A DNA stretch of 38,259 bases, from positions 1 through 38,259 of the forward strand of contig CACYRM010000017.1 of the NCBI GenBank assembly GCA_902776845.1, written 5' to 3'. The position numbers and the translations under genes were made by a program. The stretch comes from Oscillospiraceae bacterium. Lineage in GTDB: Bacteria > Bacillota > Clostridia > Saccharofermentanales > Saccharofermentanaceae. Positions within the stretch are counted from its first letter, which is position 1; each line of letters begins with the position of its first letter. The notes beneath the pieces are model-generated. The model was not told the DNA's origin. It saw only the letters and a list, made by a program, of their open reading frames with translations, and did not search any database. Shown one piece after another: positions 28,286-36,651 of this stretch.

Positions 28286-30088
28286 TCAGACCCTCGACGC
28301 CCCGAGATCCTTGATAATATAAGGGAATAAAAGTTCAAGCCATGCATTGAGTGCTTTCGCGGTATGAAGATAAGTCTCAAAATTCTCGCCTGAAGGGTCA
28401 GGAACGGATATGGACATCACTCTTCCGGACGAATCTTTCATGACAAGTCCGTTAGCTGCCGCAAATGTCGACAGCGAAAACACTTTATCTTTTATCTCCG
28501 GAAAAGCCTTGATTATGGCGAAAGCCTGCTCATCCCTTACTGTCAGGATAAGGTCATTGCAGTCGTAAACGGCAGGATCTGCTCTTCTTGACTCTATTGA
28601 ACCCAACCCCCTTCCGGTAAGCTCTTTTACAGCCCGGTCCATATCCGGATCCGAATCCATTCCGTCCATTGCCGTAAGGCCTGCAGACTCACAATAGATC
28701 TCAAATCCTGTATCGCGTGAACTGTCGGATATATAAGGCTCATTCTTTTCGAGAAGCATTCTCATAAGGATCTCACAGCAGGCAGACAGCGAAGTATTAT
28801 TATCATCTACAAACAGTACAGATGCGGTAACCGTATCCTTAAACGCATCGATAGGCAGAGGTGTTCTTGAGGGCCTTGCAGGCGCAGGCATTCCGGGAGT
28901 AAGGTCCTCTTTTTTACCTGAAGCCTTTGAAAGCCTGTTCATGTATGCGACAGACAGTCCGTCCCCGTCAAAACCCTGGGCAAGGATGACATCGACTTCC
29001 TGCACATCCAGGAATCTCAAGCCTTCGAAAAGCCCGTGGGAAGCGCTTGCGACATCAACAGTATTTCCGTAAACACAGAATTCCGTATGAGCGGACAGTA
29101 TCTTATCGTTGAGCTTGCCGTACATAGCCTTTATCTCGCCGCCGCAGTACAGGCCTATCCTTGCAAACGGGTTCTCTGAAAGGATCTCTCTTGAACGTAA
29201 TATGAACGGGGACGCGATGTTTACAAGTTCTTTTGCCTCATCGTCAGTCAGTTTCTTAAGATCGACAGGTTCATAACGGCCAGTCCTGCCGTCAGGACCT
29301 GCCGCGTTATCGCCTTTGATCTCAACGCCTTCCGGCATCTTCATGATCTCAACCCTTGCATATGGAGCATAGTGGCGGTACTTCATTCCCGGAGATCTCG
29401 GAGCTTCACTGCCCTTCAGACTTCCTGCCAGTACAGCCTCACCGCTTTGAAGAACAGCATCGATATCTGCCTTTGTAACAGCACCCGGCCTTAAGATAAC
29501 AGGATCCGTTCCGGTGCAGTCAACAACCGTGGACTCAAGTCCGAATTCGGAATCACCGCCGTCTATTACCGCGTAAATATATCCGTCCATATCCTCCATA
29601 ACTGACCTGCTGCTTGTGGGAGAAGGTCTTCCGGAAAGATTTGCGGAGGGTGCCGCTACGGGAATGCCGGCTTCCTTAAGGAACCTGTTGGCTGCAGGAT
29701 GCGAGGGCATTCTGACACCCACAGTATCAAGACCTGCGGTAGTCTCATAAGAGATCAGATCTGATTTCTTCATTACAAGAGTAATGGGTCCCGGCATAAA
29801 AGCATCAATAAGTCTTTGTGCCATGGGTGTGATCTCCGACACGATATCCTTTATCTGGGATTTATCTCCAATATGGCAGATAAGGGGATTATCGGCAGGT
29901 CTTCCCTTTGCCGCGAAAACCTTTTTTACGGCTTCACCGTTTCTTGCGTCACAGCCGAGACCGTAAACTGTCTCTGTCGGAAAACCGATCACTTCGCCGT
30001 CCTTAAGATGGCGGACGCAGTCCTTGATGCCCTCCTTGTCGTCTGATCTTATAAGTAATGTTTTCTTATATCTTTTCGCGCGTTCCAT
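28286..30088 (-). CDS. tsaC: Threonylcarbamoyl-AMP synthase (TsaC/Sua5) fused to a degenerate low-molecular-weight phosphatase domain
   Basis: 600 residues, three domains. Residues about 10-205 are the YrdC/TsaC domain that makes threonylcarbamoyl-AMP for t6A37 of tRNA (FPTETVYGLGCDA, KGRPADNPLICHI, VAAPSANLSGRPSPTSS, GLESTVVD, ILRPGAV). Residues about 225-390 are the Sua5 C-terminal domain (SPGMKYRHYAPYARV). Residues 421-600 match low-molecular-weight protein phosphatases/YwlE: SVLFVDDNNTSLSACC, ADPAVYDCNDLILTV, KVFSLSTFA and the acid-loop VPDPSGENFETY. But the catalytic CxGNxCRS loop reads DDNNTSLS: Cys is Asp428 and Arg is Leu434, so phosphatase chemistry should be lost while the Asp of DP (564) remains. 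ATG at 30088 after AGAGGT; 17 bp after prfA. Confidence 0.92.
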   Translation of the reverse strand: MERAKRYKKTLLIRSDDKEGIKDCVRHLKDGEVIGFPTETVYGLGCDARNGEAVKKVFAAKGRPADNPLICHIGDKSQIKDIVSEITPMAQRLIDAFMPGPITLVMKKSDLISYETTAGLDTVGVRMPSHPAANRFLKEAGIPVAAPSANLSGRPSPTSSRSVMEDMDGYIYAVIDGGDSEFGLESTVVDCTGTDPVILRPGAVTKADIDAVLQSGEAVLAGSLKGSEAPRSPGMKYRHYAPYARVEIMKMPEGVEIKGDNAAGPDGRTGRYEPVDLKKLTDDEAKELVNIASPFILRSREILSENPFARIGLYCGGEIKAMYGKLNDKILSAHTEFCVYGNTVDVASASHGLFEGLRFLDVQEVDVILAQGFDGDGLSVAYMNRLSKASGKKEDLTPGMPAPARPSRTPLPIDAFKDTVTASVLFVDDNNTSLSACCEILMRMLLEKNEPYISDSSRDTGFEIYCESAGLTAMDGMDSDPDMDRAVKELTGRGLGSIESRRADPAVYDCNDLILTVRDEQAFAIIKAFPEIKDKVFSLSTFAAANGLVMKDSSGRVMSISVPDPSGENFETYLHTAKALNAWLELLFPYIIKDLGASRV

Positions 30089-30105: not shown

Positions 30106-31194
30106 TTACTCTTCACTGCTTCCCGCTTTATCTGCAGCCTGAGCCAGAGTCAGGGCATCCACGATCTCATCAAGATCGCCTGCAAGTATACTGTCGAGCT
30201 TATACAGAGTTAACCCGATCCTGTGATCCGTTACCCTTCCCTGATGATAATTATATGTGCGTATTCTCTCGGATCTGTCACCGGTTCCGACCTGGGATTT
30301 CCTCTCATCATTATGTCTGTCCACATCGGCCTGATGGGCGATCTCCCATAAACGGCTCTGCAAAACAGCCATGGCCTTCTCCTTATTCTGGATCTGGGAT
30401 CTCTCATCCTGACATGTAACGACCATGCCGGTGGGAAGGTGCGTGATCCTGATAGCGGAAGATGTCTTATTGATATGCTGTCCGCCTGCGCCCGAAGCTC
30501 TGAAACGGTCGATCTTAAGGTCTGCGGGATTGATCTCCACATCGGTGGGTTCCGCCTTTGGCAGTACCGCTACAGTTGCAGTCGAGGTGTGGATCCTTCC
30601 TCCCGACTCGGTTACGGGAACCCTTTGGACTCTGTGGACTCCGCTCTCAAATTTCAGTTTTGAATACACACGTACTCCGTCGATCTCGGCAACGATCTCC
30701 TTGTAGCCGCCGAGTTCCGTCGGGCTCTCATCGACTATGCTTACATCAAAGCCTTTGAGCGCGGCATAACCCTTGTACATCTTGAAAAGATCTCCCGCGA
30801 AAAGCGCGGACTCCTCACCGCCTGCTCCCGCCCTGATCTCAAGGATTACGGATCTTGAATCTCTCGGGTCGCCCGGAGTCAGGTAGATCATCAGTTCCTT
30901 TTCGAGCACTTCAAGCTTTTCTTTGGCATCTGAAAGCTCAGCATTAGCAAGACTTCTCATCTCATCATCACCGCTTAAGTCTCCGCTCCCGAGAAGGGCA
31001 AGAATACCCTCTATCTCTTTTTCACACGCTTCGTAGCTCAGGATCGCTTCAACCTGAGGATTGAGAGCAGCAAGTTCCTTTGAATACCTTGTGTATTCAT
31101 CCGGGCGTGAAGCAACCGCCGGATCGCTCAATGTGCCGGTCAGTTCTTCATATTTTGCCTTGATAAGATCTGTCTTGCTTTTATCTATTGCCAT
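30106..31194 (-). CDS. prfA: Peptide chain release factor 1
   Basis: Releases peptides at UAA and UAG. 362 residues, full length. The peptidyl-hydrolysis GGQ motif is in RASGAGGQHINKTSSA; the codon-recognition region and the charged N-terminal domain (DKSKTDLIKAKYEELTG) are normal, as is the C-terminal RVTDHRIGLTLYKLDSIL. The ATG at 31194 has no visible ribosome binding site, and an AT-rich promoter-like stretch lies only about 15-40 bases upstream, so the mRNA may have a very short leader. It is followed by tsaC. The methyltransferase gene prmC, often between these two, is not present here. Confidence 0.97.
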   Translation of the reverse strand: MAIDKSKTDLIKAKYEELTGTLSDPAVASRPDEYTRYSKELAALNPQVEAILSYEACEKEIEGILALLGSGDLSGDDEMRSLANAELSDAKEKLEVLEKELMIYLTPGDPRDSRSVILEIRAGAGGEESALFAGDLFKMYKGYAALKGFDVSIVDESPTELGGYKEIVAEIDGVRVYSKLKFESGVHRVQRVPVTESGGRIHTSTATVAVLPKAEPTDVEINPADLKIDRFRASGAGGQHINKTSSAIRITHLPTGMVVTCQDERSQIQNKEKAMAVLQSRLWEIAHQADVDRHNDERKSQVGTGDRSERIRTYNYHQGRVTDHRIGLTLYKLDSILAGDLDEIVDALTLAQAADKAGSSEE

Positions 31195-31910: not shown

Positions 31911-34145
31911 TTAACGTTCGATCCTGATATTCGTAAGCGCGATCTGGTCACCTGTAAGCACCACATAGATCTCGTCGGCATCGATCTTGACCTCTGTCGT
32001 GCTCTTGACCGATATTCCGTCATTCTCGGTATAAGCCACGACGGTGTTGGCATTCCGCTCAAAACTGATAGTACATTCATAACCGTCTTTGTTGTACTTC
32101 TTCCAGTGATCCCAACCCTCAAAGTTATGCCTGTCAACAAGCAGTGAGCAGTCGGATGCATCTCCGGATTTCCATGTCTCACCGTCAAGTCTCATAAGAG
32201 CAAACTCTTTATATCCCTTTCCTCCGACGGTACCGTCTTCAGAATAGAAAATAAGACATGTGGGACAATGCCATACAAGCCTTGCGGTAGGAAGGCTTTG
32301 GGTATGGAAAACAATCTTCATTTTTTCCGATATGGGGACGCCGACGGACGAAGCGGAACGGTAACCGTCGATCTGAACATTCGGGATATCGCCTTCAGGA
32401 CCGTCTATAAAGCTGATCTTCTCAGCGATCCTCGGGATATAACTCTCATCTATCATTTCCTTGGAACGGTTGATCGTCATATCACTTACCGTGCAGTTCT
32501 CTCCGGTAAATCCGATATAGGAATAGCGCGAACTGTCAGGCATCGCGATGATAGCTTCAAATGAACCGGCATTAGGGTTATAGGTCTTATCACTTCCCGT
32601 GATCCTGATAAGAGTATGATCCAAAAACCTGCACGCCTCGATCTTGTATCTGCCGGGACGCATTACAGTGTCTTCAGAATCAACAGGTCTGGTCTCGATC
32701 TTACGTGCGCCCTTATTTACTACCTGACCGTCAAATCCGATCTCACAATATTCGAAATAGATCAGATCACGGATCTCCTTCTCAGTATCATGGTAACGTC
32801 CGTCAAGAGCATCAAACAGGATAATAGAAGGCTTGGGGGCAACACCGGCTTTGGCCGGACCGATTTTTACGTTTATAGTAACCATATGAGGAGTAATATG
32901 TATGCCCGTCGAGACATCATCCCTGTGCTTTTCCACAGTCAGGACATCGTCGATCGTCGGCTGATTGATAACATCTTTTTCTTTCATCTTATACTTGGTA
33001 TCTTCGTCAATAAGATGGAGCATAATATTCGCAAACTTCGGATCAAACTGTGTCCCCGAACACTCCACAAGTTCCTCGCGGACTTTTTGCTGTGGGATAG
33101 TCTCACGGTAACTTCTGCTGGATGTCATGGCATCATAGGCATCAGCCACGGATATTATCCTCGCGATCTCAGGGATATCCGAACCCTTAAGTCCGTGAGG
33201 ATAACCCTTGCCGTCAAAACGCTCATGGTGATACCTGGCGCCTATACTCAGGTAAGGATAAACCGTTATATCCTGCAGTATCTGGGCTCCCATTTCAGTA
33301 TGCTGCTTAATGGCATCATACTCTTCGTCAGTAAGCCTGCCCTGCTTATTAATGATATGCTCCGGCACTCCGATCTTACCTACATCATGAAGAAGCGCAA
33401 CATAATAAATCTCGTCACACTCCGTCTGACTTTTCCCGGCCATCTCCGCGATCTTTCTGGAATACTCGGCAACTCTGGCTGAATGTCCGTGTGTATACTT
33501 GTCTTTAGCATCGATCGCGTTTACAAGAGCCATAGCCGTCTGACTGAAAAGTCTTTCAACGTTTTTATGTTCCTCTTCTTTTCGCAAAAGCTTGATCTGG
33601 TAAGAGACCATAACACCTATAATTCCGCTTACGATAAAAAGAGCCGCCAGTGTATCGAAATAATTACCCAATGTTGAATATCCGGTTACCAGTTCAGGAT
33701 GATAATATGCTGTGACCCAGGTAGCGATCATGACTATCGCTTCGCTGACAAACATCGCGACCTTGAATTTTCCTTCCAGAATCAGAGCTATATAAAATGT
33801 CCCGAGCAGGAGCCAGACAGGAGCGCCGCCTTCAACGCCTCCGTTTGTAAAGAACATTGCCGGGAGAAAGATAAAGACCAGGATTACCGATATGACGATC
33901 TTCGCCGTTTTGATACGCTTTTTTCTAAAAGAAAAGACCACATAAAGTGTAAAGAACACCGCTCCGACAACTGTCGAGATCGTCGCGGACAACGGTTCGC
34001 GCATAATGAGACCGAACGGAACTGCCAAAAACAGGGCAACAAGAACAGCAACTGAAAAAAGCATAAACGTGCGCTCTTTTATATCTATAGAGGCATCGTA
34101 CATGTATTTTTGGGTGCGACCGAGCAATCTTTTGATACTGTTCAT
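31911..34145 (-). CDS. Membrane HD-GYP domain protein with an unassigned C-terminal beta-rich region (paralogue 1)
   Basis: About 744 residues. Five to six hydrophobic segments (about 25-185) form a membrane sensor region, then a short helical linker (QIKLLRKEEEHKNVERLF). The HD-GYP domain keeps its metal and signature residues: HGHSARVAEYS, LLHDVGKIGVPE (HD at about 253-254) and HHERFDGKGYPHGLKG, so cyclic-di-GMP phosphodiesterase activity is plausible from the family. Residues about 391-744 form a region I cannot assign: beta-rich, with PSIILFDALDGR, ARLVWHCP, FALMRLDGETW and EIYVVLTGDQIALTNI, all shared with the neighbour at 34252. The frame extends to a GTG at 34217, upstream of the predicted promoter; I chose the ATG at 34145, though its ribosome site is weak. 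Confidence 0.88.
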   Translation of the reverse strand: MNSIKRLLGRTQKYMYDASIDIKERTFMLFSVAVLVALFLAVPFGLIMREPLSATISTVVGAVFFTLYVVFSFRKKRIKTAKIVISVILVFIFLPAMFFTNGGVEGGAPVWLLLGTFYIALILEGKFKVAMFVSEAIVMIATWVTAYYHPELVTGYSTLGNYFDTLAALFIVSGIIGVMVSYQIKLLRKEEEHKNVERLFSQTAMALVNAIDAKDKYTHGHSARVAEYSRKIAEMAGKSQTECDEIYYVALLHDVGKIGVPEHIINKQGRLTDEEYDAIKQHTEMGAQILQDITVYPYLSIGARYHHERFDGKGYPHGLKGSDIPEIARIISVADAYDAMTSSRSYRETIPQQKVREELVECSGTQFDPKFANIMLHLIDEDTKYKMKEKDVINQPTIDDVLTVEKHRDDVSTGIHITPHMVTINVKIGPAKAGVAPKPSIILFDALDGRYHDTEKEIRDLIYFEYCEIGFDGQVVNKGARKIETRPVDSEDTVMRPGRYKIEACRFLDHTLIRITGSDKTYNPNAGSFEAIIAMPDSSRYSYIGFTGENCTVSDMTINRSKEMIDESYIPRIAEKISFIDGPEGDIPNVQIDGYRSASSVGVPISEKMKIVFHTQSLPTARLVWHCPTCLIFYSEDGTVGGKGYKEFALMRLDGETWKSGDASDCSLLVDRHNFEGWDHWKKYNKDGYECTISFERNANTVVAYTENDGISVKSTTEVKIDADEIYVVLTGDQIALTNIRIER

Positions 34146-34167
34146 AAGACAGGTTACGACCTCGTTA

Positions 34168-34192
34168 TTTGCTATAAACGGATTATAGCAAA
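34168..34192. promoter_or_regulatory. Perfect 10-bp inverted repeat covering the -10 box of the HD-GYP gene
   Basis: Arms TTTGCTATAA/TTATAGCAAA (34168-34177 and 34183-34192) with a 5-base spacer. The minus-strand TATAAT (34187-34182) lies inside it, about 37 bases upstream of the ATG at 34145. The -35 is weak (TGCAGA-like). This is the arrangement of an operator blocking a promoter; a hairpin in the RNA is the alternative. Confidence 0.6.
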
Positions 34193-34251
34193 ATAATTTT
34201 ATCTCTGCATTTCGCACATATTAAAAATCTGAAAGGAAAAAACCTGAGATA

Positions 34252-36651
34252 TCAGTCATCTGTCTTGAAAAAGATCCCGGTAAGGGCGCACTGGTCTCCC
34301 GTCAGAGCCACATATACCGTATCATCATCAGAACGTATCGTAGTAATACTCTTCAGGAGGATCCCTCCGTTTTCCGTAATTACAGTGATGGTTTTCCCGC
34401 TGCGTTTGATAGAGACATGACAGTCAAAGCCTTCCCGGTTGATCTTCTTCCATCCGTCCCAGCCGTCAAATTGGTCATTCCTGCTTATGATCACTTCATT
34501 GGACGCATAATATCCGGTCTCCCATACCTCTCCGTCAAGCCTTACAAGCGCGAACTCACGGTAATCCTCATCAGTTACTTTACCGTTTGAAGACGTAAAC
34601 AGACAGACAAACGGGCAATGCCATATAAGCCTTGCCGTCGGAAGACTCTTGGCATGGAAATCGATTTCCATTGCGTTTTTCAAAAGAACTCCGTCCGTCG
34701 CATCGGTCCTGTAATTATCAACCTGCACATTCGGAACATTACCGGCCTCACCTTCGATATAAGAAACCAGTTCGGCAATACGCGGAATGGAATTCTCTTC
34801 AACCGCTTCATCCGAATGATCTACTGATATAACCTTGAGATGGTAATCCGCACCGGAAAAACTTATGTAGCAGTATCTGGTGCTGTCAGCAAGCGCAACT
34901 ATGTATTCGATCATCTTGTCTTCACCGATCAGTTTTACAAGAATATGGTCTTTCTGTCTGACGGCCTCGATCTCATATTCACCGCACACACCATTAGCCG
35001 GAACGGAAGAGGACGGGGATTTCATATTCATTATGTTCGGTCTTACGGCTCTGGCTTCGCCGGTCTTATATGTTCCGTCATATTTAAGTTCAACATACTC
35101 GGTATAGAGTAATTGTTCAGCCAGTTTTCCCGATTCATGGACTCTTCCGTCCAAAGCATCGAAAAGCACTATTACCGGATCGCAGTCTTTATTATCAAAA
35201 CCTTCAGCAGGAGAGATTTTTAAACGGATATTCAGCTTGCGTTCAGGAACCGCTAAAACACCTTCCGTGTGAAAATCCCTGAAGCCCGTAAAAGTGAATT
35301 CGTCATTGCCGGAAAACTCTTTTACATCCTCTTTCTCACGCATAGCGTATTCCTGGTCCTGATCGATCATATGTATCATCTGTGTGGCAAACAGCGGATC
35401 AAACTGCTCACCCATCTCCTCGATCAGGATCTGTCTTACCGTTGCCTGTGGAAGCGGGTCTCTGTAACTTCTCTTGGATGTCATGGCATCATAGGCATCG
35501 GCAACAGCTATTATCCTCGCAAGTTCAGGTATATCACTCCCCTTGAGCTTGTCAGGATAACCTCTTCCGTCAAATCTCTCATGATGGTGATGAGCTCCGA
35601 TACTGATATAAGGAAATTCAACTATACTCGACAGTATCTCCTTGCCTATAGTCGTATGCTCTTTGATCTTCTCATATTCTTCGTCAGTCAGTTTACCCTT
35701 CTTGTTGATGATCTCATCAGGAACACCGATCTTGCCTATATCGTGCAGGAGCGCGGCATAATATATATCTTCACATTCCTTATCATCCTTACCGGCCATT
35801 TTGGCTATCATCTTGGAATAGCCCGCAACTCTTGATGAGTGACCGTGAGTATACTTGTCCTTGGCATCGATCGCGCTTGCCAATGCTTCAGCAGTCTGTT
35901 CAAAAAGTCTTTTCATGCTCTGCTGCTCAGCAGTCAGGAGTTCTATCCGCAGATCGTTTGCATGGGCATAAGATTCGTTCATATCCTTCAATGCAAACAG
36001 ATAAAGCAGCAGCGCCATTGCCGCGATCGTTGTATTTATAAATGAAAGGCCGTAGATCTTCATCTGCACAACTGAGGCGATAAGCGGCAGGATCGAAAAA
36101 AGCATAAGCGACAGACTGATGATCGGACTGAGCTTTTTGCAGTTCTGTATAATGACAGAGACCTGCAGAATAAGCATAACCGCAGGAACAAGATAACAGA
36201 ACAGAAATCCGGGTCCGCGCTGATAGGTATTCGTTGCGTCGAACGAATAATACAGACCGGTAAACTGGGATACTATCAGCATTACCATACCCGCTATTCC
36301 CAAATAATTTACGACTTTAAGCCTCTTAAATCCCTGCCCGCTGTTTGAATCCTCATAAAGATCGGTGATATAAGCATTAAACGCAAACAGAATGCCTATA
36401 TTCATCAGAAAAACCAAAAAATTGCTGATCCTGACGATCCAAAAACCTTCAACAGACGGATCACCCCTGTAAGCATATGCAAAACAGTCTGCAGCCATAG
36501 TGACCATAGCGCAAACTTCAACAGCCAGGAGCGAATTGCGTCTCTTTTTGGGAAGGGCCTTCATGAACAGTACAAATACAGCAATAAGTCCGCACATACT
36601 GCTCAACATCATCATTATTGTTGCCTGATAACTAATCAAAAATCCAAGCAT
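34252..36651 (-). CDS. Membrane HD-GYP domain protein with an unassigned C-terminal beta-rich region (paralogue 2)
   Basis: 799 residues. About seven hydrophobic segments (5-32, 40-60, 70-95, 113-133, 148-168, 178-196, 205-221) make a 7TM-like sensor, longer than and not obviously related to that of its neighbour. A coiled linker (ESYAHANDLRIELLTAEQQ) leads to the HD-GYP domain: HGHSSRVAGYS, LLHDIGKIGVPDE (His303-Asp304) and HHERFDGRGYPDKLKG (GYP 364-366), all intact. Residues about 440-799 repeat the unassigned region of the 31911-34145 protein (PVIVLFDALDGR, ARLIWHCPF, FALVRLDGEVWETG, VYVALTGDQCALTGI). ATG at 36651; no strong ribosome site seen. A promoter lies about 85 bases upstream. Confidence 0.9.
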   Translation of the reverse strand: MLGFLISYQATIMMMLSSMCGLIAVFVLFMKALPKKRRNSLLAVEVCAMVTMAADCFAYAYRGDPSVEGFWIVRISNFLVFLMNIGILFAFNAYITDLYEDSNSGQGFKRLKVVNYLGIAGMVMLIVSQFTGLYYSFDATNTYQRGPGFLFCYLVPAVMLILQVSVIIQNCKKLSPIISLSLMLFSILPLIASVVQMKIYGLSFINTTIAAMALLLYLFALKDMNESYAHANDLRIELLTAEQQSMKRLFEQTAEALASAIDAKDKYTHGHSSRVAGYSKMIAKMAGKDDKECEDIYYAALLHDIGKIGVPDEIINKKGKLTDEEYEKIKEHTTIGKEILSSIVEFPYISIGAHHHHERFDGRGYPDKLKGSDIPELARIIAVADAYDAMTSKRSYRDPLPQATVRQILIEEMGEQFDPLFATQMIHMIDQDQEYAMREKEDVKEFSGNDEFTFTGFRDFHTEGVLAVPERKLNIRLKISPAEGFDNKDCDPVIVLFDALDGRVHESGKLAEQLLYTEYVELKYDGTYKTGEARAVRPNIMNMKSPSSSVPANGVCGEYEIEAVRQKDHILVKLIGEDKMIEYIVALADSTRYCYISFSGADYHLKVISVDHSDEAVEENSIPRIAELVSYIEGEAGNVPNVQVDNYRTDATDGVLLKNAMEIDFHAKSLPTARLIWHCPFVCLFTSSNGKVTDEDYREFALVRLDGEVWETGYYASNEVIISRNDQFDGWDGWKKINREGFDCHVSIKRSGKTITVITENGGILLKSITTIRSDDDTVYVALTGDQCALTGIFFKTDD

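Follow-up and report, generated by a model that had tools for sequence, protein, structure and literature searches.

A predicted pseudophosphatase domain fused to Sua5 in a Clostridia genus whose McsB has lost its catalytic motifs

Genes and features of the locus

The window, i.e., the whole stretch of 38,259 nucleotides that was analysed, carries on its minus strand a gene in which a Sua5/TsaC part and a YwlE-like domain share one reading frame. The features relevant to this analysis are as follows:

28286..30088, minus strand: Sua5–pseudoYwlE fusion gene; 600 aa, ATG start, uninterrupted frame, with the same architecture found full-length across the genus
28295..28834, minus strand: YwlE-like domain, a predicted pseudophosphatase, residues about 419–598 (profile, model, fold and selection)
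28391..28402, minus strand: acid-loop segment PDPS, kept, residues 563–566 with Asp564 (alignment)
28784..28807, minus strand: degenerate phosphate-binding loop DDNNTSLS, residues 428–435, standing where CxGNTCRS is expected
28913..30088, minus strand: Sua5/TsaC part, residues 1–392 (Pfam and NCBIfam above cut-off)
30106..31194, minus strand: prfA (release factor 1; Pfam PCRF and RF-1), directly upstream of the fusion

The gap between prfA and the start of the fusion gene is 17 bases long, and nucleotides 28286–28828 correspond to residues 421–600 of the fusion protein plus the stop codon. Elsewhere in the window, positions 31911–34217 and 34252–36651 hold two large adjacent HD_5 (HD-GYP-type) proteins, which are apparently tandem relatives.

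The Sua5/TsaC part

The Pfam search placed Sua5_yciO_yrdC on residues 28–202 (E-value, 4.6e-58) and Sua5_C on residues 204–391 (E-value, 5.4e-23), and the fusion protein was identified by NCBIfam as an L-threonylcarbamoyladenylate synthase, with TIGR00057 above its cut-off. The motifs required in Sua5/TsaC proteins (KxRxxxxPL and SxNxSG) are present, and in the form of KGRPxDNPL and SANxSG they are invariant among 39 aligned sequences. In a full-length model (pLDDT 86), the first part matches Sua5/TsaC2 structures (best E-value, 2.7e-31) and the last part matches YwlE. Judging from domains, motifs and model, residues 1–392 are predicted to form a complete Sua5/TsaC enzyme of t6A synthesis. Like the known Sua5/TsaC threonylcarbamoyl-AMP synthases, the fusion has complete YrdC and Sua5 C-terminal domains, and its best structural match is Sua5 of P. 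abyssi, but it differs from them in bearing an additional C-terminal phosphatase-fold domain. The claim of the earlier note that a t6A enzyme is fused here to a phosphatase-like domain was upheld, as the 600-aa frame, the Pfam assignments, the model and the fold agree.

Fold and active-site residues of the C-terminal domain

When the C-terminal piece was searched alone, LMWPc of Pfam was matched with an E-value of 9.5e-5, i.e., 0.1 bit below the curated cut-off. A profile of 19 aligned relatives retrieved YwlE structures from the PDB at about 3e-8, and a structure from T. tengcongensis (4egs) at 4.5e-12. The structure prediction that the earlier note had called for was carried out: the AlphaFold2 model of the C-terminal piece (pLDDT 90.4, pTM 0.86) had its best Foldseek matches in YwlE (4etn, 4pic, 4kk4 and 4kk3) and 4egs, and alignment to these structures with VIA-align covered 147–152 residues with Z-scores of 20.9–22.9 and rmsd of 1.4–2.1 Å. 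As modelled, the C-terminal domain is of the LMW-PTP/YwlE fold along its whole length.

The phosphate-binding loop of YwlE-type phosphatases has the form C-X5-R, in which Thr occupies the specificity position, and Cys7 and Asp118 constitute the catalytic pair (PMC8001253). In the alignment, the Cys position of the fused domain is occupied by Asp428 and the Arg position by Leu434, which agrees exactly with the residue numbers previously given for this loss, and the general acid is retained as Asp564. The domain resembles the arginine phosphatase YwlE/PtpB of the LMW-PTP family in its fold, matched along the entire domain (Z about 22), and in the acid-loop Asp, but differs from it in that Cys is replaced by Asp, Arg is replaced by Leu, and the domain is fused to Sua5. 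Based on these residues, the fused domain would be without phosphatase activity.

The loop across the genus and the origin of the fusion

The genus set consisted of 59 aligned sequences from records named as Saccharofermentans-like or "Ruminococcaceae" bacteria; many of the records are from rumen or gut samples, and isolates AB4001, YAD3003, KHP2 and YRB3002 are included. Cys was found in 18 of the 59 sequences and Arg in two, both residues together were found in none, and the acid-loop Asp is present in 58, in line with the DP acid loop described from the window as kept. The fusions of all 16 genomes from outside the genus carry C[TSE]GNTCRSP, whereas Cys and Arg occur together in none of the 32 genomes inside it. 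The fusion occurs with an intact C[TS]GNTCRSP loop in four sister genera within the family, and the fused domains of these immediate relatives share the C-x-G-N-T-C-R loop with YwlE/PtpB. The comparison across relatives that the earlier note had proposed thus places the loss within the genus as a whole. With the fold matching YwlE and no genus relative keeping Cys and Arg together, neither of the two outcomes named in the earlier note as refuting was observed. Decay in a single strain and an assembly artefact were ruled out as explanations, since four isolates and dozens of MAGs are also without an intact C-X5-R loop.

The changes in the loop are not random, and could reflect a new ligand. The residue following the Cys position is acidic in 58/59 genus sequences, and Arg is replaced by Leu or Met in 56/59. 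Both regularities would suit a new catalytic or ligand-binding function residing on an acidic loop of the form [VI]-x-D-[DN]-[ND]-x-x-L-[SG], but relatives have Asp, Cys, Ser or Gly at the first loop position, a variation not expected of a catalytic residue, and we regard such a function as highly improbable.

In the tree of the Sua5 part, the genus forms a single clade (support 100/99), and Cys has given way to Gly, Ser or Asp depending on the branch. Elsewhere in the order, other families mostly have tsaC next to an intact ywlE, or carry a fusion in which the loop is intact. This gene order, along with the intact fusions of the sister genera, supports the earlier proposal that the domain arose by fusion of the neighbouring tsaC and ywlE genes. 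Because the sister genera are intact and the lesions are branch-specific, the fusion would have come first, with the phosphatase apparently active, and the decay would have followed later, in one genus and by more than one route.

McsB, ClpC and free phosphatases in the genus

A search with PF00217 detected one McsB per genome almost throughout the genus, with scores of 67–127 bits, the corresponding scores being 193–214 bits in the sister genera and about 157–223 bits in other families of the order. The ctsR-mcsA-mcsB-clpC order is kept around the altered genus McsB, so that the retention of a single McsB homologue in this operon is what the genus has in common with McsB arginine kinase systems. 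The motifs of the protein set it apart from the kinase: SSRxRLARN, NEEDH, C[PS][ST]N (CPTN.GTG) and VRGxxGE are all altered in 40/40 genus sequences. Going by the phosphagen-kinase family, we take SSRxRLARN to be the ATP-binding motif; in terms of function, the changes affect ATP-binding, catalytic and pArg-pocket motifs of McsB. All four are kept in 16 sequences from outside the genus, save for a Cys to Tyr change of the CPTN loop in one sister genus. By sequence, the genus McsB is probably catalytically dead, and no second, active McsB was found in any genus genome searched. The kinase-inactive C167S variant of B. subtilis McsB appears to keep its adaptor function (PMC7235348).

The RDxxRA pArg pocket of McsB is weakened already in the sister genera. 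In sister genus g20 (L224–L227 and L233–L235), the CPTN Cys is changed to Tyr and RDxxRA is lost, McsB is otherwise intact, and the fused YwlE loop is intact as well; this is possibly an intermediate state.

The phosphoarginine receptor pockets of ClpC involve Glu32 and Glu106 (PMC12583610). With the pocket positions placed by alignment only, Glu32 is lost in 27/40 genus sequences, including that of the window genome, and Glu106 in 7/40, both being kept in 16/16 sequences from outside the genus. The ClpC N-domain is strongly diverged in the genus, to the point that a sequence search with the copy of the window genome (L092, 4819–5300) found no PDB relative.

The free LMW phosphatase of the window genome is of the CHGNICRS type and is cut at a contig end. 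According to the literature, Ile in the loop of LMW phosphatases marks a preference for phosphotyrosine (PMC8001253). Replacement of the fused domain by a separate YwlE-type phosphatase was ruled out, this being the sole free LMW phosphatase found in an assembly that is 80% complete. A separate active YwlE and McsB had also been named as something to look for in this genome; the CHGNICRS phosphatase and the motif-less McsB were all that the search returned.

Selection on the two degenerate proteins

The dN/dS values are to be read as indications, few pairs being free of synonymous saturation: in close pairs within the genus, those of the pseudophosphatase domain are mostly 0.03–0.1, in the same range as those of the YrdC domain, and those of pseudo-McsB are about 0.07–0.15, compared with 0.016–0.06 for the intact McsB of a sister genus. 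Neutral decay of the domain was ruled out by the former range, with the same caveat as to saturation. Both the pseudophosphatase domain and pseudo-McsB appear clearly to be kept by selection. Since the constraint on the domain equals that on the catalytic YrdC domain, and lies above what a trapped passenger would need, a positive function is likely.

It has been suggested from the window that the domain reads phosphoarginine, i.e., that it was repurposed as a reader steering Sua5 or its partners. The strong purifying selection, together with the preserved fold, acid loop and general-acid Asp, would be expected of such a reader, but the phosphate-binding Arg is lost in 57/59 sequences, the acidic loop disfavours phosphate binding, and the lesions vary by branch. 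Moreover, the sole McsB of each searched genome lacks the catalytic motifs, and the search for a separate YwlE-type phosphatase returned none. A reader is improbable without a writer; the suggestion was not supported, and we give it very little weight.

Loss of McsB motifs across Clostridia

In total, 293 Clostridia genomes with completeness of at least 90% were surveyed, the window's own genome being counted apart. McsB was classed as intact in 166 genomes (assigned mostly by profile score rather than motif by motif), dead in 28 (the motifs were inspected in the 17 from other genera and in most of the 11 from this genus), partly altered in seven, cut at a contig end in one, and no McsB was found in 91. 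The YwlE loop, the presence of which was scored as a C-x-G-N-T-C-R DNA pattern, was detected in 162/166 genomes with intact McsB, in 3/28 with dead McsB and in 3/91 without McsB. Two of the three matches in dead-McsB genomes are probably not YwlE, as one (G001, inside the genus) lies on an unrelated contig and the other comes from a genome (G144) in which Pfam detects no LMWP. Comparison of the intact class with the dead class outside the genus plus the absent class yielded a Fisher p of about 1e-63, without phylogenetic correction for shared ancestry.

YwlE is absent from nearly all of the other-family genomes with motif-less McsB. The survey shows McsB without its catalytic motifs in at least seven of the sampled Clostridia families, nearly always together with the loss of YwlE. 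In loci of other families with McsB motifs lost (L246–L252, L254–L257 and L283–L287), the gene still stands beside mcsA and, where detected, clpC. Three genomes of family f37, genus g70 (L272, L274 and L275), have partly eroded McsB motifs and no YwlE, and may represent an earlier phase of this process.

Relation to known systems and proposed explanation

In B. subtilis, McsB and YwlE control the stability of TsaD through pArg-282 and ClpCP (PMC7546277). The regulatory link to the t6A pathway, presented in the earlier note as new, is hence not wholly so, since arginine phosphorylation is already tied to t6A via this protein. This known connection between arginine phosphorylation and t6A (PMC7546277) is the point of likeness, but in B. 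subtilis TsaD is the target and the enzymes work as separate, active proteins, whereas here the phosphatase site is lost and the domain is part of Sua5.

The control of a t6A enzyme by the McsB/YwlE/ClpCP system of B. subtilis (PMC7546277) and the kinase-independent adaptor activity of McsB (PMC7235348) are consistent with a reading in which the domain is a protein–protein module that ties Sua5 to ClpC proteolysis via pseudo-McsB/McsA, the old enzyme pair serving as a scaffold pair. In this genus catalytic residues have been lost from each of the partners, and purifying selection acts on the two of them. On the other hand, other pseudo-McsB lineages are mostly without YwlE, so pseudo-McsB needs no such partner; we consider this reading conceivable but rather unlikely. 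The same modest standing is given to its broader form, according to which arginine phosphorylation was abolished, and the writer and the eraser were kept as pseudoenzymes that now make up a phosphorylation-free adaptor system linking ClpC proteolysis to t6A synthesis.

Most simply, the domain would serve Sua5 structurally or in binding. The explanation that we favour, and hold to be reasonably probable, is that pArg signalling was lost in the genus, and YwlE, being fused to the essential Sua5, persists as a structural or binding pseudophosphatase. In the family ancestor, a still-active YwlE would have been joined to Sua5/TsaC, an essential enzyme of t6A synthesis. Protein-arginine phosphorylation would then have been lost in the genus ancestor, with the nucleotide-binding and catalytic motifs of McsB gone, and pseudo-McsB would have kept its place in the ctsR-mcsA-mcsB-clpC operon, where it presumably acts as a ClpC adaptor independently of kinase activity. 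With arginine phosphorylation lost, the eraser would have become dispensable: there would have been no phosphoarginine left to remove, and the phosphatase site would have degenerated in several lineages. Loss of McsB activity in other Clostridia would mostly have left no ywlE at all; in this genus, the domain is part of Sua5 and so cannot be cleanly dropped. Given the strong selection, the domain must still have some function, and the pseudophosphatase was probably kept for a structural or protein-binding role in Sua5.

Pseudoenzymes, YwlE and Sua5 are already known, and the new point is the paired decay of McsB with a fused YwlE. A literature search, with most subscription papers outside its reach, found no description of a pseudo-McsB, a Sua5–YwlE fusion or their paired decay. 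Since the loss of McsB motifs recurs with the loss of YwlE in Clostridia families, arginine phosphorylation may be absent where a genome is annotated as encoding a "protein arginine kinase". The related genera, all of which share the fusion, offer a natural experiment, as one set has a seemingly working kinase/phosphatase pair and in the other both appear dead. That McsB has adaptor activity independent of its kinase raises the question of which roles of McsB and YwlE are enzymatic and which are binding roles, and comparison of these genera could separate the two. In this gut and rumen genus, a whole signalling chemistry seems to be dead, though its proteins were kept.
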